A DNA stretch of 64,000 nucleotides. It comes from a virus. The stretch covers positions 1 to 64,000 of IMG/VR virus record IMGVR_UViG_3300019776_000521. The stretch is one strand, 5' to 3'. Shown piece by piece: positions 10,711-62,924 of this stretch. A program made the position numbers and the translations under genes. Each line of letters opens with the position of its first letter. Position 1 is the stretch's first letter. The notes under the pieces were generated by a model. It was not told where the DNA came from and made no database searches. It saw nothing but the letters and a program-made list of their open reading frames with translations.

Positions 10711-11238
10711 ATGCGTTTAACCAACACAATCCGTGATGCATTTATTCGTGCAGCAATGAATGACGTTCCCTCTGTCGATTACGTAGAAGAAGTTCGGAAA
10801 GTTTTGACTGACGATACGATTGCTGGTTTACCTCAAGCCATCAAGGATATTGCCAAAGATCCTGTTCTATCTGGCTTCTTGCACAGTACATACGGTGGGT
10901 TTAATACCCGCATGTGCAGCGTCAGCTATATCGCTAACCGTCACCAAGAGCATCGTTTGAGCATGACAGCTCAAAAAACGGTCGATGAGCTGATAGCAAA
11001 GCATAAAGCGCAAACCGAGCAACGCAATACATTAAACGGAAAACTGCGTATTGCAGCCTATGGCTGCAATACCCGTAAAGCTTTGGTAGAGCTTCTACCT
11101 GAGTTTGAAAAATACCTGCCTGCTGATGAAGCCAAGGCAATTACCCAGAACCTTCCTGCAGTAGCCAATGTGCTGTCTGATTTCGTGAAAGCAGGCTGGC
11201 CTAAAAACCAACCCAAGATGCCCAAGGTCACACCATGA
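10711..11238 (+). CDS. phage protein, possibly Nmad5-like
   Basis: 175 residues beginning MRLTNTIRDAFIRAAM, followed by an acidic helix and a C-terminal helical part. The N-terminal signature resembles, from memory, the Nmad5 group of putative nucleotide-modification-associated phage proteins, but no catalytic residues can be assigned, so this is a weak suggestion. It starts the accessory block after the terminator and overlaps the next start by 4 bases. Confidence 0.5.
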   Translation: MRLTNTIRDAFIRAAMNDVPSVDYVEEVRKVLTDDTIAGLPQAIKDIAKDPVLSGFLHSTYGGFNTRMCSVSYIANRHQEHRLSMTAQKTVDELIAKHKAQTEQRNTLNGKLRIAAYGCNTRKALVELLPEFEKYLPADEAKAITQNLPAVANVLSDFVKAGWPKNQPKMPKVTP

Positions 11239-11855: not shown

Positions 11856-12080
11856 ATGCTGCCTGACACGTTTCTACGTACAGAAGAAGTTCAAGCCCTG
11901 ACCAAGCGGACGGTACGTCCAGCGCAGGTCAGGGTATTGAAAGCAATGGGCATTGAACACAGGGTACGTCCTGATGGCAGCGTTGCTATCCTCAGAGCAC
12001 ACATCTCCAAAGTGTTCGATGGCAATCCTGAAGTCACCCGTCAAACCAAAACAGCTACACCCAACTGGGATGCTATGTAA
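11856..12080 (+). CDS. DUF4224-like protein, candidate recombination directionality factor
   Basis: 74 residues. The sequence FLRTEEVQALTKRTVRPAQV with IEHRVRPDGSVAIL fits the DUF4224 family, short winged-helix-like proteins often encoded immediately upstream of phage tyrosine integrases. Its last base is the first base of the integrase ATG, so translation is coupled. A role as excisionase or integrase cofactor is inferred from this position and not shown by the sequence. Confidence 0.72.
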   Translation: MLPDTFLRTEEVQALTKRTVRPAQVRVLKAMGIEHRVRPDGSVAILRAHISKVFDGNPEVTRQTKTATPNWDAM

Positions 12081-13171
12081 TGCCTCGCAAACGCAGCAAA
12101 GACAACAAGGGTCTACCTGCTCGCTGGAGACACACTCATGGAGGCTACTACTACCAGGTTCCTCCTGGCTTGGAGCACCTATGGGATGGCAAGAAAACCT
12201 TTCGTTTGGGAGCCAAGCTCAATGAAGCCTATCAAGTATGGGCATCACGCCTTGGCAAGGTAGATCAAGCCAAGACGATCGGACAACTGCTTGATCGCTA
12301 TGCCCTTGAAGTTATCCCAGCCAAAGCAGCTGCAAGCCAAAACAGCAACCGCAATCAGCTGCAGATGCTCAGGCGTGTGTTTGGTGAGCACCCTCTCCTT
12401 CCGTTTGTTCCCCAGCTGGTCTACCAGTACGTAGACAAGCGCAGCGTCAAGAAAAAGGATCCAGACACTGGCAAAGTCACTGGTGGAAGGATTGCAGCCC
12501 ATCGTGAAATCGAACTGCTGTCGCATGCGTACACCAAAGCAGTCGAATGGGGCTACATCGATCGCCATCCATTCAAGAACGAGGTAAGGCTCTCTGGTGA
12601 AAAGTCCAGAGACCGCTACATCGAAGATTGGGAAGTCATTGAGATTCTCTCATTGGCTTCACGTAGGAAGGCTGGAAGCGTTTTAATGATCCAAGCCTAC
12701 CTTCGCCTCAAGCTCCTCACTGGAATGGCTCAGGGAGACCTTCTGAGGCTTCAGGAGAGCCATATCAAAGAAGACGGCATCCACAACCAACGGCACAAGA
12801 CTGCAAACAGCACCGGCAAGAAGACCATTTACGAATGGTCACCCGAGCTTCGTGCTGCAGTAGTCCTGGCCAAGAGATCACGACCAGTGCACATCTCACC
12901 TTTTTTGTTCTGCAACAGAGACGGTGAGAGCTATGTGAACGAAGAAACTGGAGAAGCTGCTGGTTGGAAATCCATGTGGCAACGATTCACTCAACGAGTG
13001 ATCAAAGAAACCAAGGTCACTGAGCATTTCACTGAACACGACTTTCGAGCCAAGGTAGCCAGTGATGCTAAGACTCTGGAACACGCAAGATCTCTATTGG
13101 CTCATGCCGATAGCAGAACTACTGACAAGGCTTACAGACGAAAGGCTGAGAGGGTTTCTCCTCTTCGATAA
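12080..13171 (+). CDS. int: tyrosine site-specific integrase lacking the first catalytic Arg
   Basis: 363 residues. The N-terminal region (about 1-70) resembles an arm-binding domain with HTHGGYYYQVPPG; a core-binding helical domain follows, then the catalytic domain. Box II is intact (TEHDFRAKVA, with His-x-x-Arg), LLAHADSRTT gives the second His, and AYRRK supplies the tyrosine nucleophile. The box I motif normally TGxRxxE/D reads TGMAQGDLLRL, so alanine stands where the first catalytic arginine is expected. The gene would insert and excise the phage at an att site; the substitution may reduce or abolish strand cleavage unless another arginine compensates. Integrases are rare in N4-like phages. 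Confidence 0.85.
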   Translation: MPRKRSKDNKGLPARWRHTHGGYYYQVPPGLEHLWDGKKTFRLGAKLNEAYQVWASRLGKVDQAKTIGQLLDRYALEVIPAKAAASQNSNRNQLQMLRRVFGEHPLLPFVPQLVYQYVDKRSVKKKDPDTGKVTGGRIAAHREIELLSHAYTKAVEWGYIDRHPFKNEVRLSGEKSRDRYIEDWEVIEILSLASRRKAGSVLMIQAYLRLKLLTGMAQGDLLRLQESHIKEDGIHNQRHKTANSTGKKTIYEWSPELRAAVVLAKRSRPVHISPFLFCNRDGESYVNEETGEAAGWKSMWQRFTQRVIKETKVTEHFTEHDFRAKVASDAKTLEHARSLLAHADSRTTDKAYRRKAERVSPLR

Positions 13172-13173: not shown

Positions 13174-13542
13174 ATGAAAATCAAACTGAGCGAAACCACA
13201 CCGCTCCAGATCAACTATCTGGTGGCGAAGTGCCAAGGGGTGAAGTTGCATCCAGTACCACAAAGCGGAGTGATGGAGATTCATTTCTCAGAGCCGAATG
13301 GTTGCGCTACTTACCAACCATCGACCGACTGGGCCCAAGGTGGGCCGATCATCGAAAGAGAGAAAATTGAACTTAAATACCTTGGCTACGACAATCCCCC
13401 GTACTGGGGCGCGTTGAAGTTTTCCCCGAGCAGTTACGAGCGTAAAAAGGCTATTGGCCCCACACCCCTAATCGCAGCCATGCGCTGCTTCGTGGCCAGT
13501 CAGCTGGGCAATGAGATTGAGGTGCCTGATGGACTTATCTAA
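13174..13542 (+). CDS. NinX-like (DUF2591) phage protein
   Basis: 122 residues. The segments LVAKCQGV, YQPSTDWAQGGPIIERE and GPTPLIAAMRCFVASQLG match the conserved core of DUF2591/NinX-type phage proteins, whose role is unknown. It starts 2 bases after the integrase stop and runs into the next gene, so the three genes probably share a transcript. Confidence 0.75.
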   Translation: MKIKLSETTPLQINYLVAKCQGVKLHPVPQSGVMEIHFSEPNGCATYQPSTDWAQGGPIIEREKIELKYLGYDNPPYWGALKFSPSSYERKKAIGPTPLIAAMRCFVASQLGNEIEVPDGLI

Positions 13543-13744: not shown

Positions 13745-13884
13745 TGGGCTACTGTGATCCCAAAGCCATACGCAACGGAAAGGCTTGGGCTGATGTCGTC
13801 AACAAGACGCCCATGAACCCACCCCCAAAACCTGTACTATTGCCAAAACCCAGTTCTTTGAAAATCAAGGACTTACCGACTTAG
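13744..13884 (+). CDS. 46-residue protein, tentative
   Basis: The ATG at 13744 overlaps the preceding stop and the frame runs 46 codons to a TAG. The predicted peptide starts MGYCDPKAIRNGKAW and has a proline- and lysine-rich second half. Coupling supports it, but the second half overlaps the TGTACTAT repeat cluster, so it may be fortuitous. Confidence 0.35.
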   Translation: MGYCDPKAIRNGKAWADVVNKTPMNPPPKPVLLPKPSSLKIKDLPT

Positions 13885-14049
13885 GATGTGGCCAAAAATA
13901 GTACAGCCACCATCATCCAAGTTGCTGATTCCACAAAGGAAATCGAATCCAGGACCATCTGGCTACGAACCAACAGTCTGAACCCGCAAAGCCAGTATTC
14001 ATGCGGATCTCCAGACACTGCTGTAGTATTGAAAGGCTGTTGTACTATA
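13833..14049. promoter_or_regulatory. cluster of TGTACTAT-like sites, candidate integrase arm sites / attP region
   Basis: TGTACTATT at 13833-13841, its inverted copy AATAGTACA at 13897-13905, TGTAGTATT at 14022-14030 and TGTACTATA at 14041-14049 lie between the integrase block and the tRNA-Arg gene. The repeated short site in direct and inverted orientation next to int and a tRNA is the layout of many attP regions. The stretch 13885-14056 holds no other convincing gene. Confidence 0.4.
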
Positions 14050-14056: not shown

Positions 14057-14133
14057 GCGCCCGTAGCTCAGTTGGATAGAGCGTTCGGCTACGAACCGAA
14101 AGGCCGGGAGTTCGAGTCTCTCCGGGCGCGCCA
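14057..14133 (+). tRNA. tRNA-Arg (anticodon ACG), with encoded CCA
   Basis: A 77-nt cloverleaf: acceptor GCGCCCG / CGGGCGC (7 bp), D stem GCTC / GAGC, anticodon stem TTCGG / CCGAA with loop CTACGAA giving anticodon ACG, T arm GGGAG-TTCGAGT-CTCTC, discriminator G and genomic CCA at 14131-14133. It would read CGU and, after A34 to I editing, CGC and CGA codons. It may supplement host arginine decoding, or mark an att site, since tRNA-Arg genes are common integration targets and int lies 0.9 kb upstream. Confidence 0.95.
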
Positions 14134-14138: not shown

Positions 14139-14588
14139 TCACACCGTGTTGAGGCAAGCCATCTCACCATGCAGCTTTTGTGCTGCCCTGTTGTAGGCCA
14201 CTGCAGCTTCTTCTGCAGTGTCAAACCTACCCAGGTAGTGAGGCTTCTGGTTGATCTTGATCCTGGCCTCAAAACGACCAGCGTTCCTGTAGACCCCTTT
14301 GTACTTGATCTCGCCCCTTTGCTGAGGCTGGCGATTACAGGCATTGCCTGATCGATCCGTGATTCTCAAGTTGGCTTTCTGGTTGTCCAACTTGTTGTGC
14401 TTGCGATGATCAACCACTTGATCCCCCACTGCACCCATCACTAGACGGTGCATGCGGATCTTTTTGCCTTTGTGGTTTGCTACTGCATAGCCTTTGTCAG
14501 ATAAGTGCCAAGTAAATTGGCTCACTCTTTCAAAGTCTTCATCGTCAATTAAAGCAAACCCGCCTTCTACAATTGCAATTTCTTTCAT
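14139..14588 (-). CDS. HNH homing endonuclease with AP2 DNA-binding domain
   Basis: 149 residues. The first half carries an HNH_3-type core (MHRLVMGA, VVDHRKHNKLDNQKANLR), and the second half an AP2/ERF-like domain (YKGVYRNAGRFEARIKI, YLGRFDTAEEAAVAYNRAA). Free-standing HNH-AP2 proteins are mobile endonucleases that cut a specific site in phage genomes lacking them. It is transcribed against its neighbours and ends 5 bases from the tRNA, consistent with late insertion into this boundary. Confidence 0.9.
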   Translation of the reverse strand: MKEIAIVEGGFALIDDEDFERVSQFTWHLSDKGYAVANHKGKKIRMHRLVMGAVGDQVVDHRKHNKLDNQKANLRITDRSGNACNRQPQQRGEIKYKGVYRNAGRFEARIKINQKPHYLGRFDTAEEAAVAYNRAAQKLHGEMACLNTV

Positions 14589-34555: not shown

Positions 34556-34966
34556 ATGCACAACGTCACTTCTCCCAGAACTGACGACTCCGGCATTGAG
34601 CAGGAAATCGTAGCCAAAGGCAAAGTTGCTCCGCGCGTTACACCTGCGGACATCGAAGCCAACATTGCCAGCGAGCACTACTTTACGGCTCGTGACGGGC
34701 GCCGTGGCGCACTGTACGAAGAAACCTATGTTGGGCGCGAACGGCCAGTGGTAGACAACTCTGACCTTTTGCCGCTCGGCCTTCTGACTTTCTGCGTACT
34801 GGTTCTGCGTAACGGCTTTACCGTCACAGGTGAATCGGCCTGCGCAAGTCCTGAAAACTTCGATGCAGAAATCGGCCGCAAGATCGCCAGGCAAAACGCT
34901 GTGCAAAAGATCTGGCCCCTGATGGGCTATGAACTGCGCAGCAAACTGGCTGGAGATGCAGCATGA
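34556..34966 (+). CDS. Gp49-family phage protein
   Basis: 136 residues. The conserved Gp49 (Phage_gp49_66) core is plain: VTPADIEANIASEHYFTA near the N-terminus and the later SACASPENFDAEIGRKIARQ with KIWPLMGYELR. The family is common in phages of proteobacteria; function unknown. It begins one base after the previous stop and overlaps the next start by 4 bases. Confidence 0.85.
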   Translation: MHNVTSPRTDDSGIEQEIVAKGKVAPRVTPADIEANIASEHYFTARDGRRGALYEETYVGRERPVVDNSDLLPLGLLTFCVLVLRNGFTVTGESACASPENFDAEIGRKIARQNAVQKIWPLMGYELRSKLAGDAA

Positions 34967-35313
34967 CGCGCACAGACATCGCCCGTGTGTGCCATGAGGT
35001 AAATCGGGCCTACTGCTCAGCCCTTGGTGATCATAGCCAGCCTAGCTGGGAAGACGCACCCGAGTGGCAGAAAAGCAGCGCGCTGCTAGGTGTGAACCTG
35101 CATTGCGACAGTAATGTAGGGCCTGAAGCCAGCCACGAAAGCTGGATGAAACAAAAACTTGCTGAAGGATGGGTCTACGGGCTTGTAAAAGATCCCGTTG
35201 CCAAAACGCATCCTTGCATTGTTTTGTTCGATGATCTTCCTCAAGCACAAAAAGCCAAGGATTTCATCTTTCAAGCCATCGTTCATTCCTTGAGAGAAAG
35301 CGCAGTCCAATGA
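34963..35313 (+). CDS. RyR-domain protein
   Basis: 116 residues. IARVCHEVNRAYCSALGDHS and SAL-LGVNLH, PEASHESWMKQK, GWVYG and HPCIVLFDDLPQAQ reproduce the RyR domain, a module known from ryanodine receptors and found alone in many phage and bacterial proteins. Its role in phages is unknown. Coupled to both neighbours by 4-base overlaps. Confidence 0.82.
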   Translation: MTRTDIARVCHEVNRAYCSALGDHSQPSWEDAPEWQKSSALLGVNLHCDSNVGPEASHESWMKQKLAEGWVYGLVKDPVAKTHPCIVLFDDLPQAQKAKDFIFQAIVHSLRESAVQ

Positions 35314-36505: not shown

Positions 36506-36730
36506 ATGGGCGTACTCAAGGGGATCGGCTATACCCTAGCCGCTATCCTGGTTCTTGCAGTACTATTGATCGGAGGAGCGCTCATATCTTCATTTGTTCT
36601 CGTAGCAGGATTTTTCCTGTTCGTGGCAGCTGTTGTGTCTCTAATCGCACTCTGGATCAAGGAATGCTGTGAATCAGTACCAAATCGAACGAAGCAAAGC
36701 CAAAGAGCAGGCCCCAAAGAAGGCGCTTGA
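36506..36730 (+). CDS. small membrane protein
   Basis: 74 residues with two hydrophobic helices (about residues 8-30 and 33-52) and a Lys/Arg-rich C-terminus. The beginning of the reading frame of the next gene lies inside it. It may act in the inner membrane during infection; no family recognised. Confidence 0.55.
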   Translation: MGVLKGIGYTLAAILVLAVLLIGGALISSFVLVAGFFLFVAAVVSLIALWIKECCESVPNRTKQSQRAGPKEGA

Positions 36731-36770
36731 GGCACTCTTCGATGAACCGCCCAAACCCAAAGGAGTACCC

Positions 36771-37076
36771 ATGGCTAACAAGATTGATGATCTTCAAAAG
36801 CAGATCGACGCCCTGCAAAGGGAAAAAGATGCGCTACTGTCCAAGGAGAGATCCTTGGCCATTGAGGACATCAATTCCAAAATCAAGACTTTCGGCATCA
36901 AAGCCAGGGATCTGGAATTTGGAGAAGGGGCGAAAGCCTCCGCCATTGGCAAGCCCAAGGTAGCCATGAAGTACCGATCAGGTGCCAACTCCTGGTCCGG
37001 TCGTGGACGCAAACCCAAATGGGTTGAAGACCACCTTACGAAGGGTGGAAAACTTGAGGACATTCTCATCAAGTGA
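36771..37076 (+). CDS. H-NS-like xenogeneic silencer / nucleoid protein
   Basis: 101 residues from the ATG at 36771, with AAAGGAG at proper distance. An N-terminal coiled coil (about 3-40) would dimerise it, and the C-terminal YRSGANSWSGRGRKPKWVED is the DNA-binding motif of Burkholderiales-type H-NS proteins. The same frame stays open upstream to a GTG at 36669 that also has AAGGA, giving a possible 135-residue form. It may silence host or competing DNA or tune phage transcription. Confidence 0.82.
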   Translation: MANKIDDLQKQIDALQREKDALLSKERSLAIEDINSKIKTFGIKARDLEFGEGAKASAIGKPKVAMKYRSGANSWSGRGRKPKWVEDHLTKGGKLEDILIK

Positions 37077-37450: not shown

Positions 37451-40400
37451 TTACTTCACAATTGCCATCGCAGTGTGCACCGTAGCCAAGTTGTCCAGTG
37501 CACCAAAGTACTGGAAAGCTCCAGAGTGCAATGGATTGTTTCCAATGTGCTGCGTAAACGAACTATCCAGAACGATGGGTCCGAGTTCCATGTAATGATT
37601 CAGTGCAATGGCTGACAGTACACGGGCCGGGTTCTCCCTGGCCAGCTTCAGCAGCACCCGTTGAATGCGTAGGAAGTACTTGGTAAATGGCGTCAGGCCC
37701 ATGTCGTCCGTGTACTGCAAACCACGGTGCATCGGGATGTCGTAGTTCACAAAGGCATCCGACGCTTCCTGAATTGCAGCTTCACGGCTCAACGGGTTCG
37801 TGCCCCTGCTCACCAGGTGCTGGTACAGCGTGTACCGAGCCACGAAGTCCGACAGCTGTGTAATGCGGCTCAGAGTCTGGTACATGTTGGTGTCATGCGT
37901 CATGTACACCGCCCTGCCTGCAGCACGAATCTTGGGGTTCAGCCTGCTGGTGAACTTCTCCGTCTTTCTCACAAACTCACTCTTGTACGAGTAGATGTTT
38001 TCCTCAGCAGCAAGATCTTCCACGATCGTAGGCATCAGCCCTGCTTCAATCAGTTCCTTGACCGGATTCCTAGCAATCGCGTCTTTCAAGCGAACGATTT
38101 CATCCTTAATTTCCTTTTCCTTACCCAGTCCGTAATCGACCTCCAGCATCGTCTGCAGATCCGCCAAACGCTGGCTATCTCTCTGGTATGCCGTAGCACC
38201 TTTCAACGCCACCAGGTGATGCTGCAATACGTCCTTCAACGACACGCCTGACATGGCAAGCAGCGACAAGTTCGACCAGATGTTCCCAAGCATCACAAAG
38301 CCAGTCTTGACCACAATGATGTCTTTGGTCTCGGCTACCAATTCCTGCCATGCACGTTCGCCCCTGGTGATCACTACGGCTGCTCTCTTGGCGTAATCCT
38401 CTGCGTCAGCTGCAGACAAGCCATGCCGCATGCCTGCGTAGTTTGCAAGCACTGTCTGCACCACATACACAAACAAGCCTTCCAGCTTGTTTCGTGCATC
38501 AGGATCCTTCTGGAACATCGACGCCAAAGTCAGCTTGCGATACCCAAACATGATGTCCAGTGAATCGCTGCGCACCTTCATGCCGTCCCTACCCCACACT
38601 GCCCTGATGTCTTTCTTCGTAGCATCAGGCAGTAAATCCCAGATCGCACGCATCTCAGGATCAGTGCTCCGATCGCCAACTTCAACGTAAGAATCCTTGC
38701 GGGTTGCGTACTCCAGTTCGTACTGTTCACGCAATACAGTGACTGCTTTTTTGTTCTGTTCCCGACTGGTCTCCTTGTCGTAGATCGAACCAGCAATCAC
38801 ACCGATCAGATTCTCAAACCTGTTGTCCCGCTCAAGCAGGTTGTCCTTGGTGGACTCAGCCATCATGTAGCGCCAGTTCACGATCGCACCTGTCTCGTTG
38901 TAGACAGGAATCATGTGGTTTTCTCTTTCAGCTGACAGATCCCTACGCGGATCACCCATACCTTGCATAGCAGCCAGCTTTTCGTTGGTGATGGTCGCTT
39001 GCATGCTTGCATTCTCAAGCCCGTTCAGCGTGTTCACGTTTACGTAGCCGCTGTGCTTTTTGCTGCCCCTAGACTTCATGCTGGACAAGGAAAACGCACC
39101 CGAAAGCCAAGGAGACAAGCCACCGTCCCTGAGCACGTAGATTCGCTTAGTTTCGGTATCCGGGTCAGCACGATCGTTAGACACCAGTGCGCCTGCCGAG
39201 TAGCCCTGGTTCACAAGCTCCTTGCCTTCTGCCTCGGTAGCAATCTTGATCGCTGTATGCGGGTTTAGGATCTCCGGCGTGTAGCCATGGATCATCAGCG
39301 CAGGATTGCCTTTGAACAACCGTTGTAGCGACTCCTCTTCCAGCTGCTTGTGCAGCTTCAACAGGAACTCAACACCGTTGCCATTGTTATCAGTTCGACT
39401 GTTTTCAGTCCTGAAAACTTCTTTGGCTTGGCTCAAGTGGTCACCTGCTGTGTACTTCAAGGCGTACAAAGAGATCAATGCTGCAATCACAGGCTCTGCC
39501 TGTTTTGCTTCAGCCTCAGAGATCTGCCGCTGGTACTGAGTGTTGGCCATCCTGGAGATCAAGTGTGCATTGAGCATCAGCACAGGAATTCTGGCTCGTC
39601 CAGTTGCTTTGAAGTAACCCAAACCATTGATCTGTTCGATGTACTTGTCTTTGTATTTAGAGGTCAGCTGAGACTCAAAGTTTTCAATGGCTTTGTCTAC
39701 TGCCTTGTAATCCCCAACCAGCTTCTCCAAATCAGCAACGCTGTAGTGATTCAGCAAGTTGTGCAAACCAGTTCTTAGAAACACAGCAGACACTGCAGCT
39801 TTGGCTTCCTTGCTCATTGCTTTGCCATTCTGAAACACGCTCAGCACAAGCTTCGAGTGCTGCGTGATGATGTTCTTGCGCTCACCTTCATGGCGCTTGG
39901 TTTCACGCAGCAGAGCATTGAACTTGTCCAACGGTCCCTTCAGTTCATTGAGCAAACTTGCTGCAATGCCTTGCCTGCCTTTGAACTGCTGATCACGAAG
40001 AATTTTCAATCCGTCAATCACTTGCTCCACCCGATCATTGGCAATGGTTCGAGCTATGCCCCCTGCTGCTTGAACAAACGCATTGCCGTTGTTACGAACA
40101 AATGACGAACCAGCAAGGTCACCTGCTTTTTCCCGGATGCCATCTGCCAGCGCTTTGACGCCTCTTTCAACTGGTTCAAGAATGCTGCGCTCTGTTGCAC
40201 GCTTCTTGATGAGCACTCGCTTTTTGGCTTCGATGTCCACCAGCTGGCCAACCAACGCTTCCAGCTTGGCGTCAGCGTTCTGACCAGCGTAGGTGTGCGT
40301 GAACTTCTCATTGAAGAAATTCAAAATGCGCTCAAAGATGCTTTCGAGCTTCTCGGTGAACGTCATGTCCTGGGCTGCTTTGCGTGAAGCAACCTTGGTT

Positions 40401-43400
40401 GCTCTTTTCAACAGCGTATTGAACTTTTCGCTGGCCAGGCCCAGGGCTGCAAATCGAGCCAGGTAATCCGAGCGATCGCCGTTGTTGCTCTCCAGCTTGA
40501 ACACAAAGTCGTAGTCTTCCTGGGACGCAAAATCCGATGGCTTGAGCGTATTGCGCATTTCAAGGTACAGATCAGCCAGCTGCTTGTAGGCAATCTTGGT
40601 TTGGGACTCGTTGCCGTTCAACGCTGCCCGCACGGTGGCTTCCACCTGCTGCATGGCAAAGTCTTCCTGTGCACTACCTGCAAACCCAGACGCCACAATC
40701 GATGATGCAAAGGGAGCGTTGCCTGTTTCCATGGCTTTGAGCCATACCGCCAAGGGATTGCCTGCCTCGGTCTTGCGCATCTGCTCTGCAAACGCACCAA
40801 ACGGGCCGTGGAGCTTCTCTACGATGCCACCCAGTAGGTTGGCCAGGTGCTCCTGGAACGAAGGCTCTACGGAGCCATTGGCCAAGGCGTTGTGGATGTC
40901 CAGGGTCGTGTACTTGTCGATCTGCTCGACGGTCTCCTGAGCAAGGTTCAGGTCGGCGTTGCTTGTCTTCTTTGCTTGAGCCGCTTCCGCAAACAATCCC
41001 GACACATTTGCAACCAGCACAGCCATGCCGTTGTTGAGATTCTCGTCAGGCTTTTTGAACAGCAGTTGCGTCAGCGTAGCGATGAACTTCTTCATGCCGG
41101 TGATCAGCGAGGTGCTGCCGGTCTTGGACTCCATGGTGATCTTGCTCAGCACATCACGCTGCAGGCCCAGGTTGGTCATGCCCCAAGCCACGAACTCTTG
41201 AACGTTGGCCAAAGCTGCCGTGTAGTCGTTCAGTCCGTTTTGCTTTGCATACTCTTGAGCCTTGACCCGCAGAGCTTCAAGCTCAGCCACCAGTGCTGCT
41301 GCTTCGCCGGTTGGCTTGTCGATCACCCGTGCAATCGCTGCGTGCACCAGTTCATGCAGCAATGTTTCGGCTGTCAAACCAGAGTTCTGAAACTCTGGAC
41401 TGAGTACGTAGATTTCCTCCTGGCCATTCTTGACGACGTACCACCCACGGGAATTGGTTGTGGGCTTTTCCAGAACCATGCTTTCCGCTGTCTCGGATGT
41501 CACAAACTTGATCTTCAAGTCAGGGCTAACCACCCGACTGACCAAAGCCAGGATCTTGCGATTGATTGCATTCATCCGTCCAGGTGCACCAAGCAGTGCA
41601 ATCACTTGGGACGCCGAGGCATTCGGATTGGCTTTGAAAAACCTGACCAGATCGCCATCACTTTCAATCTTTGGCGTACCGATTGGTCCAAACAGACTAT
41701 CGGCAGTAGCAACAGGCTTCTCGGTTGCAGGAGCAGGCTTTTCGGAAACACTCATGCCCAGGGCTTCAGAGATGATCACAAGAGCTTCTTGTTCCTTGGC
41801 AGAAAGCCCCTCTTTCAACGCAGACTGCATTGCTGCAGCATCACTACGATCGGCTTCGGTGACTTCGTAATTGCCACCTTCGAGTGCGTACTGATCAACC
41901 GAACCCATCTGGCTCAATGCTTCAAGACGCACACTGTCTGCGCTGAAAGCCGTGCTTGTTGCGTTTTGCAGCATGTCGCTCAGCACCGTGTCAGGGCTCA
42001 TCTCGTTCTCACCTGCAAACTTGTTCAACGCTTGCGTGAGATTCTCGACAACCTGAACAGGAAGATCCTTCTGAGCCAACAGCTCAGACAAGCCAACAAC
42101 CGTGCGAGACAACATGTTCGCCATCTCCGTTGCCGGAGAGTAGTTCAGCAGTGCACTCCAAGTAGCTTGATTCAGGTTCTGTGCTGTCTGACTAAATCCG
42201 CCCAAACCAGATCCATGAGCATCATGGATGTTTAGCACTTCATTGCCATCTGCAGCGTTGTGTGAGATTGCAGAGTCCAGCGAATGCGTGGACATCACGA
42301 CCATTGCTACGCCAGGATTGCTTTCGATCGTTTCAAACGCAGTAGCTTCGACCGATGATTGCTCAACGTAGCCGCCTTTCTTCTTGCTCCAAACCTTGGT
42401 TCCTTTGATTGCAGAACCAAACTTGACATTGCTTTTGAACGTGCTGCGAGTGCTGAGCTTGCGGCTTGATTTCGATGCAAACAGGCCAGCACGCAAGGAA
42501 CCACTTTCCTTGGACATGAGCGTGTGCATCACAGGAGCAAGCTTGCTCACTCGTTTCTTGAGTTCTTCCTGCTGCTTGAGTGTCAGATCGTGAATCGGAC
42601 GGTTCTTGCTATCTACTGCAATTTCACCAGACGCCACCAACTCAGCCAGGTACGCATCACGCAAGCCCATGTACGCTGCGTTGTACAGCTCGAATGAGAA
42701 CTGAGCACTCTTGTTCAGTGCATCGCGTTTGCTGATGAAATTGCCAAAGTCAGCGGACATTGTTTCCGACACTGCTTTGCCCAGCGTGTTCTTGAAGCTG
42801 TTCTTTAATGCCTTGATCTGATCTGAATCAAACTCGTAAGCAAGCAGCTTTTCCACAGACATCAATGAAAGCTTGGCGCCATCACCACCCCTCAGCAATA
42901 CATTGATGTTGTTGATAGTGGCTCGAATATCTGCTTTGCCTGCAGCCACATCTTCCATGCTGGAGTAGATGGATTCAATAAAGCCATCGGCCATGCTGTC
43001 TACAGCCGAACCAACAGAGGAGCCAAAGATCATCGCCGTCAAAGGCGTCTTGATGATGTTTCGACGCTTCTTGAGAATCTCAGGTGTCTCAAGAGTCAGA
43101 TTCCCGGTAAACGCATACACAGCGTTCAAAGTTGCACCAATCTTGCTGTCTTTCAGCAGCATCTTCTGCACGGCATTCGTCATGTGCAATGCAGTGATCT
43201 CGTATAAATCTTTGGCACCAGGCTTACCACGCCAAACGTTGTAGTTGGTGTTGGGATTGCTTTTCTCGAAGAACCCACCACGATTGAGCAAGCCAAACAA
43301 ATCCTTCACAGACTTTGCTGCACCAAGCAGGATATGGCTCAGCATGGGGCCATTGGTTACCCCGTCTACCTCGCCCATCATCTGAACGGAAAAGCTGTTC

Positions 43401-46400
43401 TTGCCATCAAGCTGCGCTTGTGCTTCCGTAGCCAAAGCCATCAGTGCATCCAGCGAATGAAAATTCATTCCGCCTTTCTTGACTCCAGCAAGCAGGACTT
43501 TTCCTTCTTCTGAAGTGATGCCACCTTCAAACACTGTCTTGCGCAACACTGCTACAGCGGCTTTGATCTCCGGCTGATTGACGTAGGATTCATAAGCAGC
43601 CAACGAAGTCTTGTTGGCTTGCTTGTCTGTCTTGACTCCCAGACCTTCAAGAACCCTGAGCCGAAAGTTGTCCATCTGATCGGCATTGCCCATATCGACC
43701 ATCGTGGTCCATGCGTTGCGAAATAGCATGAAGCGATGGATCTTGCTGGTCTGCGGATTGATGACGTTGGTGGCAATACCAACTCGTTGCTGCTTCCACA
43801 CCGAATGCTCAAAATACATTGGAGCTTCGATGTCAGCCATGCTTTTGACAAACTCCATGAACCTATCCAGTTCACGAAGCAGCCCATCGTTCTTTGCCTG
43901 CAAACCTGGCTTGTTGACTGCATGAGTTTTGGTGTCGGAAATCTCAACGACACCTGCAATGCCTTGAAGCACATCGTCACCAAGCTGCGTGATCAGCTGC
44001 CACATGTCTTGCCGCACATAGTTGGCTTCTGCATTCTTGGCAGCAACAATCTTTGCAAGCTTCTCCGGTACGTTCTGGTTGGTGTTGCGTGTCTTTTTCT
44101 GCACAAACGGAACTGGCTCAAGGCTGGGTTCCTTCAAACCAGACTCTACTGAAAACAGCTTGTCGAGCACTCCTTGCGAACCAATGGATGCCTTGACGAT
44201 CCGCTCTGCATCAGCAGGCAAAGTGCTCTGCGCATTCCTGGCAAGTTTGACGAAATGAAATTCTGCGTTCGTGTTCGTGCTTTCCTTGTTCGTCAACGCA
44301 GCCATGGTCTCACCTGAGACTGTTGACCTTTCAAGCAGTCCTAGATCCATCATCAACTTCCATGCATGTGCACCCAGGGAAGCTTCCAGGTCAGGCATCA
44401 GATTGACTGGGGCATCCTTCGACACTTTGAAACCAAGCGCCTGTACAACTGCTTGGCCAAGCGAGTTGCGCACCAGGTTTTCCCTTACGCCTACGTTGCC
44501 GAGCACCATGCGTTCAGCTTGCGAGACGCTGACAGTTTCATCCCGATCGAGAATCGCGTTGATGTCTTCGTCAGTGTTGTACAGATTCTTGGATGCAGCT
44601 TCTGCAACCCAGCTGAACACTGCATAGCTGATTGCAGTCTTCACATTCTGATCAACATCTAGCTTTCCATCGTTCTCTTGGATCAGGTACTGCATCATGT
44701 CTTCGTACCGGAACTCTTTGGTACGAGCACTCAGATTCTTTTGAATCAACCCTTGCCATTGCTGGTTCAGTTCTTGAAACAGCTGCAGCACTTCTTGCTG
44801 CTTGCCGCTGAGAGACTTGATGCCAAGGAAATCCAGAACATTCTGAGCACCCTGGCTCAGGAAGTTTTTCACCTTCACTAAAGGCCGCTCAGTCAGATCG
44901 CCTTCACGACTGGCTTGCTGAGTGAAGAAGTCTGCAATGAGGTTACGAAGAGGAAACGATGTCCCCTCCGTGGACTTTTCCTGAAGCGTCGTAACAGCAC
45001 CAGGCTGCGTAGACAGTGCACTTGCGACCTCTTCAGAAACTGGAACAACCTCTGAAGGGGTCGTGCTAGTCTGCTCAGTAGACTGCAGTTGACCTTGATT
45101 TGTCTCAGGAGACGCAACAGTTGTCCTAGTAGAGCCGGAGGCTCCTACAGACGCAGCAGGCTCACCCGAAACACTTTCTACGGTTTGTCCAGCGGCGGAT
45201 TCAGTTGCTGCGGTTGCTGGTACTGAGGGGTTGACGGCTCCTCCTTCAACTCCTCCGGTCGGCTGACTCGTACCTGCTTCAGTCGAGGGCGCAGTTTCTG
45301 TGCGATTCGGACTGGCTTGTAATCCTTCGAGTGTTTGCGATACGTTCGAGACATTACTGACTCCATTGGAAATAGGTTGGGCAAACTTCAGCCCGTAGGC
45401 TGCTCGAAGCTCTGTTGCCGCCTTGGTCAGTGCATCCGATTCAATCTGAATGTTATCAACAATTTTGGTGCTGTTCCTGACAATATCCAGGCCACCATTT
45501 TGCTGACGTTCTTTTTGACTGGGCCATTTCCCAGTTTCAATCGACCAGCTTCCATTGCCATCACTAACAATGCGCCGCTCCTGCCCGTCTTTCTCAAACA
45601 GGGCTTTTGCTTCAGCAGCCACTTGTGCTTTCTGCTGATGGTCGCTGACAAAGTTGTCCAGCAGCTGCAACTGCGCAGTAGCGGCTTTTGAGTTGTTTGC
45701 TGCCAGTGCAGTCGTGACATTGGCTCGGTATTGCTGAATACCGATGTTCCCTTTGCCGCCATAGAAAACCTCCTTCGAGACCTTATCCATGGTCTTGAGT
45801 TGGTTCTCTGCTTGCCGTGCTTGCGTGAATGCCCGCAGGTAGCCCCGCTGCGGGTCCGTCAGGCCGTTTGTCGTGTCATTGGCAAGCGACGCAGCCAGGT
45901 TGGTATCCAGGCGCTCTGGCGTGGCCATAGACAGGTTGATGATGCTGTCCGCTGCAGCCTGTGAAGCTACCGGATCAGCAGCAGTGATCTTTGCAGCCTC
46001 AGCTTCTACATCCAGCTCCTTGGATTGGTTTTCCTGATTGAAGTTATTCAGCACCTCCTGAGCTGATGCAATCTGCTCATCAAGCCGAGAGATCTGCTTT
46101 TGCAACCTTGGACCAGCGTCTGTCTCCTTGGCCAGGGTTGCAAGTTCAGCTTCCAGAGCATCGACGGTAGGCTGATCTCCAGCTTCTCTGGCTTGAACCA
46201 GTTGAGCCATGTAGCCAGCCACAGCTTCAGGCGAGATAGAAGCGTAGTTTTCTTCTGCTTTTTGTTTCTGCTCAAGCAGATCAGACACGATGCCCGATGC
46301 CTGCTCAAACTTTGCTTGTTTCAGTTCGGGCGTAGCGGTCGGCAATTGGCTGTGGCCATACAAAGCCGATACAGCCTGATCTGGGGCGTAGGACGGGCTT

Positions 46401-47647
46401 TTGGGATCCAGGAAGGTAGTGACATCACCTGAGACAATCGCAGCTTGTAGGGCTTCTGCTTTCGTTGCGTCGGCTACTTTCTTTTCAAATTTAAGCAGAG
46501 ACATTTCGGATGCAGACTTCAAAGTCTGAATACCACCACCCATGATTCCGCCCATGAAGGCACCCTGACCAGCAGCAGCACCAACGCCATCAAAAAGCTC
46601 TTGTGCTGGCTTAATCTCCTTGACTGCAGAATTTCCAAAATAGCGTCCGCTACCCTCTTCTATTCCTTCCTGCCCAGCTTCTCCAACAAATGCTTTGGGT
46701 ACAGCAACAAAACCACCTGCTTTCTTGCCAATCAGAGCTTTCTCAATTGCAGTACCACCAGGAAGTGCAGAAGAAAACAACGAAACTGCTCCTGCTTTAA
46801 GCGTAGCTTCTCCGGCCAACTGCGATGCAATAGCTTGCTTGGCTTGTTGAGGACCAAGGCTTTCAGCCAAAGCTACATACTCAGGGTTTTGATCCCAAAC
46901 AGCATCAGGCAACGACATCATTCGCTGCATCGTGTCTGAACCAACATCGACACCTTGCAACACAGCGCCCGTACCAACAGCAGCAGCTGTGCCACTCTTT
47001 TCCACAGCAATCTGTCCGGCTTTGGTTGCTGCAACTTTAGGCAGTGTTTTGGCTGTAGCAGCAGCAGCTAGTTCAGCACCACGACCTACTTTGCTCATCA
47101 CTCCCAGTTGCGCTGCTTGTTGAGCCAAAAACTCAGGAATGCTTCCTGGGTCTTTTGCAGCTTCCCAGAATGCAGCACCAAACTCTGCAGCAACTTGCCC
47201 AGCTACACCTGTTACGCCATCACCTAAAGCTTCCCGTGCTGCTTTGCCCGCTTTGCCAGCAACCACTGCTTTTTCTTGATTTTTGGCTTGAGCAAAAGCT
47301 GATTTCAGTTTTTCTCGTTCATCAGACATTTTGCTGATGTCTTGTGTTTCAGGCCCGTACCAATCACCAGTGGTAGCTTTGTCGTAAACCATCGCTGGCA
47401 ACTTGGCCAGTCCATCGATACCTTGAACAGCTGACAAAGCCAAGTCTTTTGTGTAGTCCCCCCACGACCTACCTTCATCAATGGCTTGATCTCTGGCTAC
47501 TTGCGCAGTGTTTTGCGCCAACGCTTGCCGGTAAGTTTCCAAGCCAGCAAGCTTCTCTTGACGAGCTTGAAGAATTTGATCAATCTTTTCAGGATTCGGC
47601 GCACCATACTTTTGAAGCAAATACTGATCAACATTGAAGGTGGCCAT
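37451..47647 (-). CDS. giant virion RNA polymerase (N4 vRNAP-like) with embedded zincin motif
   Basis: 3398 residues from the ATG at 47647 (MATFNVDQYL); a longer frame to 47863 crosses a terminator. Single-subunit RNA polymerase motifs stand at motif A GEVDGVTNGP (D1428), motif B RRNIIKTPLTAMIFGSS (R1529, K1533, F1541) and motif C NIHDAHG (H1808, D1809). R-x3-K-x7-(Y/F)-G equals T7 RNAP R627-K631-Y639 but with Phe for Tyr. A-to-B and B-to-C distances (105, 276) are near those I recall for N4 vRNAP. LLHELVHAA (H2098, H2102) plus E2151 forms a zincin-like site after the polymerase. Size, position and neighbours fit N4 gp50, ejected with the DNA for early transcription. Confidence 0.85.
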   Translation of the reverse strand: MATFNVDQYLLQKYGAPNPEKIDQILQARQEKLAGLETYRQALAQNTAQVARDQAIDEGRSWGDYTKDLALSAVQGIDGLAKLPAMVYDKATTGDWYGPETQDISKMSDEREKLKSAFAQAKNQEKAVVAGKAGKAAREALGDGVTGVAGQVAAEFGAAFWEAAKDPGSIPEFLAQQAAQLGVMSKVGRGAELAAAATAKTLPKVAATKAGQIAVEKSGTAAAVGTGAVLQGVDVGSDTMQRMMSLPDAVWDQNPEYVALAESLGPQQAKQAIASQLAGEATLKAGAVSLFSSALPGGTAIEKALIGKKAGGFVAVPKAFVGEAGQEGIEEGSGRYFGNSAVKEIKPAQELFDGVGAAAGQGAFMGGIMGGGIQTLKSASEMSLLKFEKKVADATKAEALQAAIVSGDVTTFLDPKSPSYAPDQAVSALYGHSQLPTATPELKQAKFEQASGIVSDLLEQKQKAEENYASISPEAVAGYMAQLVQAREAGDQPTVDALEAELATLAKETDAGPRLQKQISRLDEQIASAQEVLNNFNQENQSKELDVEAEAAKITAADPVASQAAADSIINLSMATPERLDTNLAASLANDTTNGLTDPQRGYLRAFTQARQAENQLKTMDKVSKEVFYGGKGNIGIQQYRANVTTALAANNSKAATAQLQLLDNFVSDHQQKAQVAAEAKALFEKDGQERRIVSDGNGSWSIETGKWPSQKERQQNGGLDIVRNSTKIVDNIQIESDALTKAATELRAAYGLKFAQPISNGVSNVSNVSQTLEGLQASPNRTETAPSTEAGTSQPTGGVEGGAVNPSVPATAATESAAGQTVESVSGEPAASVGASGSTRTTVASPETNQGQLQSTEQTSTTPSEVVPVSEEVASALSTQPGAVTTLQEKSTEGTSFPLRNLIADFFTQQASREGDLTERPLVKVKNFLSQGAQNVLDFLGIKSLSGKQQEVLQLFQELNQQWQGLIQKNLSARTKEFRYEDMMQYLIQENDGKLDVDQNVKTAISYAVFSWVAEAASKNLYNTDEDINAILDRDETVSVSQAERMVLGNVGVRENLVRNSLGQAVVQALGFKVSKDAPVNLMPDLEASLGAHAWKLMMDLGLLERSTVSGETMAALTNKESTNTNAEFHFVKLARNAQSTLPADAERIVKASIGSQGVLDKLFSVESGLKEPSLEPVPFVQKKTRNTNQNVPEKLAKIVAAKNAEANYVRQDMWQLITQLGDDVLQGIAGVVEISDTKTHAVNKPGLQAKNDGLLRELDRFMEFVKSMADIEAPMYFEHSVWKQQRVGIATNVINPQTSKIHRFMLFRNAWTTMVDMGNADQMDNFRLRVLEGLGVKTDKQANKTSLAAYESYVNQPEIKAAVAVLRKTVFEGGITSEEGKVLLAGVKKGGMNFHSLDALMALATEAQAQLDGKNSFSVQMMGEVDGVTNGPMLSHILLGAAKSVKDLFGLLNRGGFFEKSNPNTNYNVWRGKPGAKDLYEITALHMTNAVQKMLLKDSKIGATLNAVYAFTGNLTLETPEILKKRRNIIKTPLTAMIFGSSVGSAVDSMADGFIESIYSSMEDVAAGKADIRATINNINVLLRGGDGAKLSLMSVEKLLAYEFDSDQIKALKNSFKNTLGKAVSETMSADFGNFISKRDALNKSAQFSFELYNAAYMGLRDAYLAELVASGEIAVDSKNRPIHDLTLKQQEELKKRVSKLAPVMHTLMSKESGSLRAGLFASKSSRKLSTRSTFKSNVKFGSAIKGTKVWSKKKGGYVEQSSVEATAFETIESNPGVAMVVMSTHSLDSAISHNAADGNEVLNIHDAHGSGLGGFSQTAQNLNQATWSALLNYSPATEMANMLSRTVVGLSELLAQKDLPVQVVENLTQALNKFAGENEMSPDTVLSDMLQNATSTAFSADSVRLEALSQMGSVDQYALEGGNYEVTEADRSDAAAMQSALKEGLSAKEQEALVIISEALGMSVSEKPAPATEKPVATADSLFGPIGTPKIESDGDLVRFFKANPNASASQVIALLGAPGRMNAINRKILALVSRVVSPDLKIKFVTSETAESMVLEKPTTNSRGWYVVKNGQEEIYVLSPEFQNSGLTAETLLHELVHAAIARVIDKPTGEAAALVAELEALRVKAQEYAKQNGLNDYTAALANVQEFVAWGMTNLGLQRDVLSKITMESKTGSTSLITGMKKFIATLTQLLFKKPDENLNNGMAVLVANVSGLFAEAAQAKKTSNADLNLAQETVEQIDKYTTLDIHNALANGSVEPSFQEHLANLLGGIVEKLHGPFGAFAEQMRKTEAGNPLAVWLKAMETGNAPFASSIVASGFAGSAQEDFAMQQVEATVRAALNGNESQTKIAYKQLADLYLEMRNTLKPSDFASQEDYDFVFKLESNNGDRSDYLARFAALGLASEKFNTLLKRATKVASRKAAQDMTFTEKLESIFERILNFFNEKFTHTYAGQNADAKLEALVGQLVDIEAKKRVLIKKRATERSILEPVERGVKALADGIREKAGDLAGSSFVRNNGNAFVQAAGGIARTIANDRVEQVIDGLKILRDQQFKGRQGIAASLLNELKGPLDKFNALLRETKRHEGERKNIITQHSKLVLSVFQNGKAMSKEAKAAVSAVFLRTGLHNLLNHYSVADLEKLVGDYKAVDKAIENFESQLTSKYKDKYIEQINGLGYFKATGRARIPVLMLNAHLISRMANTQYQRQISEAEAKQAEPVIAALISLYALKYTAGDHLSQAKEVFRTENSRTDNNGNGVEFLLKLHKQLEEESLQRLFKGNPALMIHGYTPEILNPHTAIKIATEAEGKELVNQGYSAGALVSNDRADPDTETKRIYVLRDGGLSPWLSGAFSLSSMKSRGSKKHSGYVNVNTLNGLENASMQATITNEKLAAMQGMGDPRRDLSAERENHMIPVYNETGAIVNWRYMMAESTKDNLLERDNRFENLIGVIAGSIYDKETSREQNKKAVTVLREQYELEYATRKDSYVEVGDRSTDPEMRAIWDLLPDATKKDIRAVWGRDGMKVRSDSLDIMFGYRKLTLASMFQKDPDARNKLEGLFVYVVQTVLANYAGMRHGLSAADAEDYAKRAAVVITRGERAWQELVAETKDIIVVKTGFVMLGNIWSNLSLLAMSGVSLKDVLQHHLVALKGATAYQRDSQRLADLQTMLEVDYGLGKEKEIKDEIVRLKDAIARNPVKELIEAGLMPTIVEDLAAEENIYSYKSEFVRKTEKFTSRLNPKIRAAGRAVYMTHDTNMYQTLSRITQLSDFVARYTLYQHLVSRGTNPLSREAAIQEASDAFVNYDIPMHRGLQYTDDMGLTPFTKYFLRIQRVLLKLARENPARVLSAIALNHYMELGPIVLDSSFTQHIGNNPLHSGAFQYFGALDNLATVHTAMAIVK

Positions 47648-47681
47648 ATAGTCTTTCGGTCTGAAGGAAGTGGTAGCTATT

Positions 47682-47712
47682 CTAAAGAAAAAGCCGGGAG
47701 TTACCCGGCTTT
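47682..47712 (-). terminator. terminator after the thermonuclease-fused gene
   Basis: AAAGCCGGG / CCCGGCTTT with a five-base loop (47690-47712); on the minus strand it is followed by TTTTTCTTTAG. It lies between 47715-49679 and the giant polymerase gene, so the latter may depend on read-through or its own promoter. Confidence 0.75.
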
Positions 47713-47714
47713 GA

Positions 47715-49679
47715 TTATTGCCTTGCTCTAAACACTGGTGGATAAACAGGATTGGGGTCTTTCCACAAGCCACGCTTTTCTTTACGTGCAGTGTTTTCTG
47801 CAATGTTGAGATCAACGTTCCTGAGAGTTTGCTGCGCAAACGCTTTGTACACCCAAGCTGCACCTTGCTCTACCATGGCATGGTCAAGACCTTTGCCTTC
47901 AATCTCAACCTGACAAATAGATCTACCGGCGTACTTGCCATCAGGACGAACAATTCTGATGTTCACTTCTTTGTTGAGAATCAGCTCTTCCAGACGTTTC
48001 TTCGATTCCTCTCCAAACGGCTGACCATTTTTGTTGTACTGCTTCTTTGCAGTCTCCGGTGCGTCGATCGTATCTATCCTGCAGTTGATTCCGTTTTCAG
48101 AAGAAAACGTGTCTCCATCAGCAACGTAGCTAACTACTGCTTTTACCCCGGTGCCTTTTGGAATAGCACCAGGAGCAGCTTTTACTGCGCTGACTGGTTG
48201 CTTCCATTTGACATCTTTGGGTAGCTCTATCGGATCAGTTTTAGCTACCGGAGAACCATTGACAGGATTGAGAGCAAAGCCAGTCGAATCAGCTACGGCT
48301 GGCTTTGATTTTGACGAAGTAGAAAAACCGCTGTTGAAGCTAACAGCAGCTGGAGCCTCAGTTACCTCTTTTTTTTTTTCCGGTGCGCTTGTTTCAGCTT
48401 TTGCACTGGAGATAGCTCCGTACCTCTGAAATTCTTCGATCAGCGGATCAACGGCCAGAGTCTGAGGAACATCAATCAGACCACCTCGTCCAACAATCCT
48501 CTGTGTTGGTCCACTAACCTTTGGTTTAGGCAGCAGACTTTCAATCTTCTTATCAAAGCTGTCAGCGTAACCTTTGCTACCAAACCAGTTGGTATCAACT
48601 GAAGAAAGCAAAGCCGATTTCACAACACTAAGCGGAACAGGTACGTTGACTGTAATCGGCTTTCCATCTTCACCAATGGTAGTCCGAGTGATACCATTTT
48701 TGGCAAGATTGGAAATTCTTTCCATCAGGTATGCACGACCGTTGCTGTCGTCTTTGCCACCAATTCCGTTAGTCTTTGCAATGGTAGCAAGCTCTACAAG
48801 ACTGTCTGGAGTCAGCAGCCCACCTTTGTACACGTTGTCTTGTAACGCAAGATCTAGCTTCTTGACGTTTTGAGCAGCAGCACGTTCACGCTCTGCTCGG
48901 TCAGCAGTCAATCTTGAAGCGTTTGTTGAAGCTTCTGAAGCACTGATGCGGGCTTGTATTTCTTTTCGAACCAAGTCGGCATTGTTAACTGTGTTTTGAA
49001 GACTTTGGTTATCAAGACCAGCTTTGGTAACAGCAAGAGGTCGCAGCAAAGCACGTTGTGATTCTTCTGTGCCTCGACGAGTTTCTTCTGCTACTCGGCG
49101 CTTCTCTTCTTCAGTATCAAAACCAAACCTTGTTGAAGCACGATCTCGTTCTGTCAGAGTCTGCTGCCGCGTATCGATCGTCTTTGCCAGGTTCACGGCT
49201 TCCCGCAGATCAGGTCGAGCAGCCAGCATCTCGCCTGCACGCTTTGGATCCTGCAAAGCCATGAGGTTGATCGCACGAACGTCTGCTTCCTGAGCAGCAT
49301 CCAGCATCGTGTTCTTGTACGTGATGCCTTGAACGTCACGCTGCTGGAGCGTATTAACGCGCCCATCACGAAGAGCATTCACTGCAGCCCGATCAATCAC
49401 AGCGCCATTTGCAGCAACAGCTTGATCCAGTGCACCAGACCTGTTCAAAACGTTGAACTGGTCCACGTTTTCAGCTTGATAAATCTTGCTCAACGCATCT
49501 TGCGTAGCAGCTTGATCTTGTCGTTTCCACAAAGCCTGATCGAAAGTATCGCTTTCTTTGAGAGTGCTTTTCAGGCTGTCAAACGCTCCAGCAAAAGCCT
49601 GTTGCGCATAAGCAAGCGGACGACTGGCATCTGCCAGGGAAGGTCCGGTAACGGTACGCCAAGTGATGGGGGTAGCCAT
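47715..49679 (-). CDS. virion protein with C-terminal SNase (thermonuclease) domain
   Basis: 654 residues. The first 500 are alpha-helical, polar and coiled-coil rich (RQQTLTERDRAS, EEEKRRVAEETRRG), as in phage internal proteins. Residues about 505-640 are a staphylococcal nuclease fold: VVSYVADGDTF, CRIDTIDAPET and KYAGRSICQV keep the Asp ligands and the Arg-Glu-Arg catalytic residues. It lies in the position of N4 internal-protein genes, suggesting it is packaged and ejected, where the nuclease could cut host DNA or RNA. Stop and start are next to neighbours, overlapping the 49679 gene by one base. Confidence 0.82.
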   Translation of the reverse strand: MATPITWRTVTGPSLADASRPLAYAQQAFAGAFDSLKSTLKESDTFDQALWKRQDQAATQDALSKIYQAENVDQFNVLNRSGALDQAVAANGAVIDRAAVNALRDGRVNTLQQRDVQGITYKNTMLDAAQEADVRAINLMALQDPKRAGEMLAARPDLREAVNLAKTIDTRQQTLTERDRASTRFGFDTEEEKRRVAEETRRGTEESQRALLRPLAVTKAGLDNQSLQNTVNNADLVRKEIQARISASEASTNASRLTADRAERERAAAQNVKKLDLALQDNVYKGGLLTPDSLVELATIAKTNGIGGKDDSNGRAYLMERISNLAKNGITRTTIGEDGKPITVNVPVPLSVVKSALLSSVDTNWFGSKGYADSFDKKIESLLPKPKVSGPTQRIVGRGGLIDVPQTLAVDPLIEEFQRYGAISSAKAETSAPEKKKEVTEAPAAVSFNSGFSTSSKSKPAVADSTGFALNPVNGSPVAKTDPIELPKDVKWKQPVSAVKAAPGAIPKGTGVKAVVSYVADGDTFSSENGINCRIDTIDAPETAKKQYNKNGQPFGEESKKRLEELILNKEVNIRIVRPDGKYAGRSICQVEIEGKGLDHAMVEQGAAWVYKAFAQQTLRNVDLNIAENTARKEKRGLWKDPNPVYPPVFRARQ

Positions 49680-52578: not shown

Positions 52579-53748
52579 TTACGCATTCACACCCGTCAAC
52601 AGCTTGTCCACTGCCCGACCTACGAACGTATCTGCCAGCTTGTTGGTCGAATCGGCCACAGTACCTTCGTCAGTAGTGCGACGAACGTTCCAGGTATCGA
52701 CCATAAGCTTGGCGGCTTTCTGTTCGGCATCTCTGGTAAAACCAGAAGTCTGAGCCTGGTAAAGCAGCTTCTGACGACCCACAACGCTGTTGTCGTCCAC
52801 ACCCAGTGCAGTGACTTGAGCGCGTTCCGTAGCGACTTTCTGGCTGAGCAGAGAAGTCTCTTGAGCCGCCTTGAGCACATTGCCCATGGTGAGATCAAAC
52901 TCTGCAGTGAGCTTGCATTGCTGAGCAGTAAGCACTGTGCCTTCGATGATGGCATTGGCTTTCTGCTGTGTGATGAGTAGCGTTTGGGCTTCAATTTGAA
53001 GACTTTGAGTAACCAGGTTTGTCGTTTGCTGGATTGCCTGAGCCTTGTTGGCATCGATGAGCAAGCCTTGCTTTGGAATGTTGCTGGCTTCAGCAAGCAA
53101 GTTGGCAGTCTGCTGCGTCACTTGATTCTTCTGAGCAACCAGCACATCGCCTTGCTTGGGAACGTTCAACGTCTCTGCAGTAATCTGCGCAGCCTGTGCG
53201 TCAACACGCAGCTTGTCTGCAGCAAGATTGAGTTTCTGCTGAAGCTGCACTTCTTTTTGAGCATCAAGCAAGGTGCCTTGCTTGGGAATGTTGAGAAGCT
53301 CAGCAGCAACATTTGCAGTTTGAGCTTCAAGCTGAGTCTTTTGAGCAGTAACAACCAGGGTTTCCTGAGCCAGCTTAATTCGCTGAGCAGTGGCTGTCAG
53401 TAGCTCGTCAACCAGGTTGGCTTTTTGTTGATTGATCAACAGCGTTTGAGCTTCGATTTGTAGCTTTTCAGAAGCAGCTTTGTCGATCTGAGACTGAGCC
53501 AGCAGAATCTGTTTTTGCAGCAGCTGAGCTTCCAGATCGGTTTTTTCCTTGGTGAGCAGGAATTGCAGAGCCGTCTGCATCACCTGCGTCAAGGAGCCTA
53601 GATAGACCGTTGAATACTCTGCACCCTTGATTCGGTTCTTGTTGAACTCCGCTTCAAGGTGAGCCTTGTTGGCTCGCATCAGAACGTCAAAAACACCCGT
53701 TCCATCAAGGGTGGCTTGAGTCAGGTCTGCTACTGCAATTGTGGTCAT
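52579..53748 (-). CDS. coiled-coil repeat virion protein
   Basis: 389 residues. The protein is dominated by imperfect repeats of about 35 residues around NIPKQG or NVPKQG (near residues 150, 185, 220) and Gln/Ala/Leu-rich heptads ([20 protein letters not shown]). The C-terminus has [19 protein letters not shown]. This is the build of a filamentous virion component; in N4-like phages a gene of this type lies beside the capsid gene. Role unknown. Confidence 0.65.
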
Positions 53749-53772
53749 AGGGCTATCCAGGCTTGGTGTTGC

Positions 53773-54345: not shown

Positions 54346-54361
54346 TGCGGTTCCTTTGGAT

Positions 54362-54399: not shown

Positions 54400-54408
54400 C
54401 TTGCTTGC

Positions 54409-55803: not shown

Positions 55804-55818
55804 AGGAATCCTTCGTGG

Positions 55819-62915: not shown

Positions 62916-62924
62916 AGGAACCAT

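Follow-up and report, generated by a model that had tools for sequence, protein, structure and literature searches.

The N4-like phage described here encodes an excisionase-integrase gene pair and a phage attachment site (attP) that probably targets the anticodon loop of a host tRNA-Arg(ACG) gene, and its own tRNA-Arg(ACG) would replace the host tRNA broken by integration. We assign this reading a probability of about 0.6. The analysis is centred on a window of 64,000 of the 73,555 bases of IMG/VR record IMGVR_UViG_3300019776_000521. N4-like phages are usually regarded as strictly lytic, and hence as safe for therapy. If the reading is correct, tRNA-dependent lysogeny extends to the N4 lineage and the tRNA gene of the phage is explained by something other than codon usage.

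The N4-type affiliation proposed in the first-pass annotation is confirmed (Schitoviridae). Virion RNA polymerase, N4-type DNA polymerase, primase, single-stranded DNA-binding protein, tape measure and portal were all matched in the window using PHROG profiles, and terminase is present in the contig tail, outside the 64-kb window. The portal is N4-like, with at most 60% identity to portals of named phages. A search with the virion RNA polymerase gene returned no near-identical phages, and no terminal repeats were found in the 73,555 bases of the record. Open reading frames were chosen greedily and include some antisense picks (e.g., 53659-55869 on the plus strand). Three features place the module within the genome:

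7870..10506, plus strand: N4-type DNA polymerase (phrog_17 DNA polymerase, E 4e-142), marking the replication block that adjoins the module
37451-47863: virion RNA polymerase (vRNAP; phrog_2206, 2078 bits, residues 77-3463)
54409-55803, minus strand: 464-aa open reading frame at the position expected for the major capsid protein

The module and its surroundings comprise the following features:

11856..12080, plus strand: DUF4224/excisionase-like protein, 74 aa, candidate Xis (Pfam DUF4224, PHROG excisionase 1266)
12080..13171, plus strand: lambda-type tyrosine integrase, 363 aa (PHROG phrog_1; profile and fold match to lambda integrase)
13174..13542, plus strand: NinX-family protein between int and attP (Pfam Phage_P22_NinX, 70 bits)
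13832..13840, plus strand: predicted left-arm Int site CTGTACTAT, in the fixed register at -129 from the core
13898..13906, minus strand: inverted left-arm site, CTGTACTAT on this strand, at -63 from the core, as in L003, L006 and L007
13960..13973, plus strand: attP core TGGCTACGAACCAA, 14 bp, corresponding to the tRNA-Arg(ACG) anticodon arm and loop; occurs once in the window
14021..14029, plus strand: right-arm site 1, CTGTAGTAT, 19 bp ahead of site 2, as in all relatives
14040..14048, plus strand: right-arm site 2, TTGTACTAT, in the arm register
14057..14133, plus strand (as the core): complete tRNA-Arg(ACG) gene including CCA (ARAGORN; Rfam tRNA, 68 bits)
14139..14588, minus strand: AP2-domain protein gene next to the tRNA, where relatives have a hairpin (Pfam AP2, 33.6 bits)

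The xis and int genes lie between the polymerase and the lysis genes. The first-pass annotation had called an integrase with a coupled DUF4224-type small protein, and both calls hold: the two frames are intact, share one overlapping base and have profile matches. The product of 11856-12080 matches Pfam DUF4224 at 42 bits (cut-off 22) and PHROG excisionase families (best E 2.5e-9). In hmmscan the integrase matches phrog_1 at E 2.6e-27, although phrog_1 searched against the whole record gave no match, a limit of that search; Pfam Phage_integrase scores 20.9 bits, under its curated cut-off of 27.1. A DUF4224/Xis homologue is directly upstream of int in 7/7 N4-like int carriers examined, with a gap of about 0.5 kb in L006.

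The integrase keeps K240, H320, R323, H342 and the catalytic Y352, and A217 occupies the position of the usual first catalytic arginine (Arg I, TGxR motif), which is absent. Lambda integrase has Arg I (R212), whereas the window integrase has R238 downstream of A217. Lambda integrase is the nearest solved protein by profile and fold comparison, and is the best fold match of the AlphaFold model (mean pLDDT 86.7). The profile match starts at residue 1 of lambda Int and thus includes the N-terminal arm-binding domain; arm-binding, core-binding and catalytic domains are common to both proteins (PDB 1z1b, 1z1g).

Arg I is present in 51 of the 99 integrases in our tree (partial or frame-broken copies were dropped beforehand), and position 238 is never arginine in these 51 (it is Pro in 44). 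Arg I is missing from the other 48, and 47 of them have R238. Exactly one arginine at positions 217 and 238 is therefore found in 98/99 sequences, a reciprocal swap; the sole exception (L161) has neither. About seven changes of state occurred on the fast tree, and at least four by supported branches. R238 is a likely substitute for Arg I, judging from this co-variation. A similar case is the CTnDOT integrase, which lacks Arg I and in which, according to PMC8138268, an arginine further downstream takes over the function; that enzyme belongs to a different subgroup, and for window-type integrases it is co-variation that points to the substitution. The idea that loss of Arg I marks a dead enzyme was rejected, as at least 20 of the int genes that lack Arg I have a tRNA gene no more than 300 bp away, and R238 appears to replace it.

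The attP of the window phage covers approximately 13832-14048, just upstream of the tRNA-Arg gene. The similarity of its left flank, 13832-13973, to L003 (64%, E 4e-11) and L005 (63%, E 8e-8) ends at the core. The 64-kb window contains four copies of TGTA[C/G]TAT, all within 13833-14048, and a single instance of the four-site arm geometry. The candidate attachment repeats of the first-pass annotation are thus real, and better founded than could be known when they were proposed. The right arm is 44 nt nearer the core than in L003, as the 3′ half of the tRNA is absent. The strong hairpin of relatives is missing as well: 13961-14020 is no more stably folded than shuffled sequence (z -1.1). An extra copy of TACGAACC at 14602, the third, was not accepted as the remnant of an insertion, given five such 8-mers in the window. 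A promoter scan gave about equal numbers in the sequence and in shuffles.

The search for int in N4-like relatives that the first-pass annotation had suggested yielded six carriers besides the window phage (L003, L004, L005, L006, L174 and L175). In all seven a tRNA-Arg(ACG) core is found downstream of int, at 0.4-1.0 kb and in the same orientation. All six relatives have the tRNA 3′ half there, with only 24 nt of it in L004 because the contig ends at that point. No tRNA-Arg(ACG) core was found in the stretch past the polymerase (only 4.5 kb in one case) of eight N4 relatives without a detected int of the window family. Over 45 nt, the L003, L174 and L175 cores are identical to Nitrosospira tRNA genes, and the L006 core (like the core of L007, whose kinship is uncertain and which was left out of the N4-like count) is identical to Polynucleobacter tRNA genes; for the L005 core we found no exact bacterial tRNA match. 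The identity to host tRNA genes indicates that these relatives can rebuild the host tRNA. A hairpin and T-run follow the CCA in relatives (in L003, -25.4 kcal/mol, z -5.8), and this hairpin behind the tRNA half looks like a terminator. Genes for proteins with an H-NS C-terminal domain adjoin attP in L006 (12137-12439) and L007 (3847-4152).

A 9-bp arm motif recurs around each core, at about -128, inverted at about -62, and as two right-arm copies 19 bp apart. Across relatives the registers are -126 to -130, +103 to +106 and then 19 bp beyond; in L005, L174 and L175 no inverted copy was recognised as such. The motif varies by phage (TTGTACTAT in L003, CTGTGCCAT in L005, TTGTATCA in L006, CCTGCAATT in L174 and L175) and agrees between both arms within one phage, with weaker agreement in L007. 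Such concerted change at fixed places should be expected of arm-type Int sites. In an arm-site test all seven sequences (window, L003, L005, L006, L007, L174 and L175) beat each of 60 shuffles, which preserved base rather than dinucleotide composition; the window was entered with its right arm 44 nt closer.

The complete tRNA-Arg(ACG) gene begins 8 bp past the right arm and aligns at 70-79% to the half tRNAs of relatives, occupying the matching place. Its isotype is that of the core, and hence of the host gene that would be disrupted. With a 14-bp core and no tRNA 3′ half behind it, the window attP cannot rebuild a tRNA. Among the bacterial loci examined, the closest tRNA is a Thioalkalivibrio gene (91%). 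The AP2 gene is probably a mobile-endonuclease-type insert and no part of the integration mechanism.

In the mechanism that we propose, the arm sites at 13832, 13898, 14021 and 14040 would serve as binding sites for Int, and strand exchange would occur in the CTACGAA of the core. As only about 14 bp are common to the host gene, integration would split the host tRNA-Arg and rebuild nothing; the complete phage tRNA, in the same direction, would then replace it. In the prophage, about 90 bp would separate the broken host 5′ half from the phage tRNA downstream of it, with no strong hairpin expected between the crossover and the phage tRNA, and the host promoter could also transcribe the phage tRNA. 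The phage is probably temperate-capable. To that extent the suggestion in the first-pass annotation that it may be temperate stands, as int, xis, and the attP core and arms co-occur and are conserved in relatives.

A less probable explanation, to which we give roughly a one-in-five chance, is that the module functions and the complete tRNA is ordinary phage cargo, its closeness to attP being accidental and further host copies making the break harmless. Phages carry tRNAs for other reasons, and five unrelated phage contigs (L188-L192) have a full tRNA-Arg(ACG) gene 91-92% like that of the window phage. The searched core was found in 38 of 60 Burkholderiales genomes, and 7 of these 38 have two to four copies. 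Against accidental cargo, the gene is the sole tRNA in the whole 73.6-kb record, shares isoacceptor and strand with the core, and is separated from the right arm by 8 bp. Further, 31 of the 38 genomes have one exact match to the core, so that loss of the host tRNA could be serious. Among five other int carriers scanned (one partial), tRNA genes were found only in G041, and were read as Asn and Tyr; these are the tRNA-Asn and tRNA-Tyr genes of the N4-like phage of L003 (L193, G041 62900-63500). One of the five unrelated contigs, L191, additionally encodes an integrase and is perhaps another tRNA-dependent case.

Somewhat less probable again is a decayed module, in which the phage or a recent ancestor lost the attP 3′ half and integrates no more, leaving int as a relic. 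The missing 3′ half and hairpin, and the AP2 gene beside the tRNA, are consistent with decay, as is the lack of a prophage in the genomes searched. The integrated copy bounded by tRNA-Arg(ACG) that the first-pass annotation had predicted was not found. None of the 80 bacterial int loci, several of which have less than 10 kb of flank, has N4 genes near int, and a search for vRNAP prophages in 399 Burkholderiales gave weak partial matches (at most 55 bits) in nine genomes. The lack of an integrated copy in these searches also weighs against the main reading, as does the lack of a recognised repressor among the open reading frames scanned. Against a relic stand the intact Int and Xis frames, the conserved catalytic K, H, R, H and Y residues together with R238, and the intact arm sites on both sides with the usual 19-bp right-arm spacing.

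Very improbable is attachment at the tRNA-Arg itself, as the first-pass annotation implied, with the full tRNA (14087-14133) as core and a host with a matching gene: it has the place of the relatives' half tRNA and the alignment to it, but left-arm homology ends at 13973, both right-arm sites precede the tRNA, and its 3′ half, at up to three mismatches, had no match in sets of 19, 399 and 398 genomes (some repeated), so that we rejected it as the core and read the tRNA as a replacement for that of the host.

Replacement of the host tRNA may have arisen by a switch. In this N4-like lineage, rebuilding of the host tRNA-Arg(ACG) would have given way to replacing it, through loss of the 3′ half and hairpin and gain of a whole tRNA gene immediately after attP, in a position to be driven by the tRNA promoter of the host. 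Combined with the proposal that the integrase family repeatedly shifted its first catalytic arginine between two positions, this forms a joint hypothesis that we advance tentatively and hold somewhat more doubtful than not. The rebuilding and replacing states in close relatives leave the switch open to study, and N4-like phages gain a defined, testable integration site.

Scans of viral contigs with the integrase and the primase gave 26 and 47 loci, respectively. Six of the 47 primase records match the integrase: three are close (73-81%), two match at 35% with an in-frame stop, and one is partial. In the N4-like relatives L061 and L067 (G033 and G039) there is another integrase of a different kind (35%), which contains an in-frame TGA. 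The neighbours of the xis-int pair in L004 are portal and dUTPase genes rather than the polymerase, so the module moves as a cassette. The seven N4-like integrases form one supported group (100/99) with L007 and the non-N4 L146, with three label changes, and the N4-like integrases were thus probably exchanged with other elements. L146 (8467-11089) is a chromosomal island, not N4-like in the stretch examined, with its integrase beside a half tRNA-Arg that adjoins a greB-like gene (labelled by eye).

A scan of bacterial genomes with the integrase alignment gave 114 loci, of which the 80 were kept. Window-family Int genes are found 67-232 bp from tRNA-Arg(ACG) in many of these genomes, and these relatives are non-N4; other int loci are near tRNA-Ser, -Arg(TCT), -Val, -Thr, -Met or -Lys. 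The sole other match to a window protein at these loci is an AP2-domain protein in L152.

Integrases in N4-like phages are already known. Integrase-bearing N4-like viruses and Moraxella proviruses were published in 2023 (PMC10654107), and that study records lysogeny genes in 54 N4-like genomes and, in addition, 40 proviruses, so a temperate N4-like phage, which the first-pass annotation held to be notable for the lineage, is not without precedent. Those viruses share an N4-like genome with integrase with the window phage; the attP anatomy is described here. tRNA-dependent lysogeny was proved experimentally in mycobacteriophages, Fionnbharth and others (PMC10865867). These resemble the window phage in having a lambda-type tyrosine integrase, a short core in a host tRNA gene, arm-type sites and a phage tRNA of the same isotype, and in both cases close relatives with a long core rebuild the tRNA. 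In contrast, the window phage is an N4-like podovirus, probably of betaproteobacteria, with tRNA-Arg(ACG) rather than Lys, Ile2 or Leu, its tRNA lies directly behind attP, and its lysogeny is predicted from sequence. Prophages like Mesorhizobium phage vB_MloP_Lo5R7ANS, in Proteobacteria, are described as bringing a tRNA of the inactivated host isotype (PMC12429752); that phage is apparently not N4-like, unlike the window phage, and is likened to it by description, not by integrase. Among the matches listed (titles and abstract openings) there was no report of tRNA-dependent lysogeny in N4-like phages, and a literature search found none of a complete tRNA in attP.

Several other genes were identified. 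The window phage encodes a protein matching Nmad5 (nucleotide-modification-associated domain; 10711-11238), a RyR-domain protein (34963-35313) and an H-NS-like protein (H-NS C-terminal domain; 36669-37076), to which the proteins encoded beside attP in L006 and L007 are related. In G050 (L006 4989-8308) and G018 the DNA polymerase gene is interrupted by about 0.7 kb, a candidate intron or similar insert, and in L006 this insert contains an extra open reading frame.
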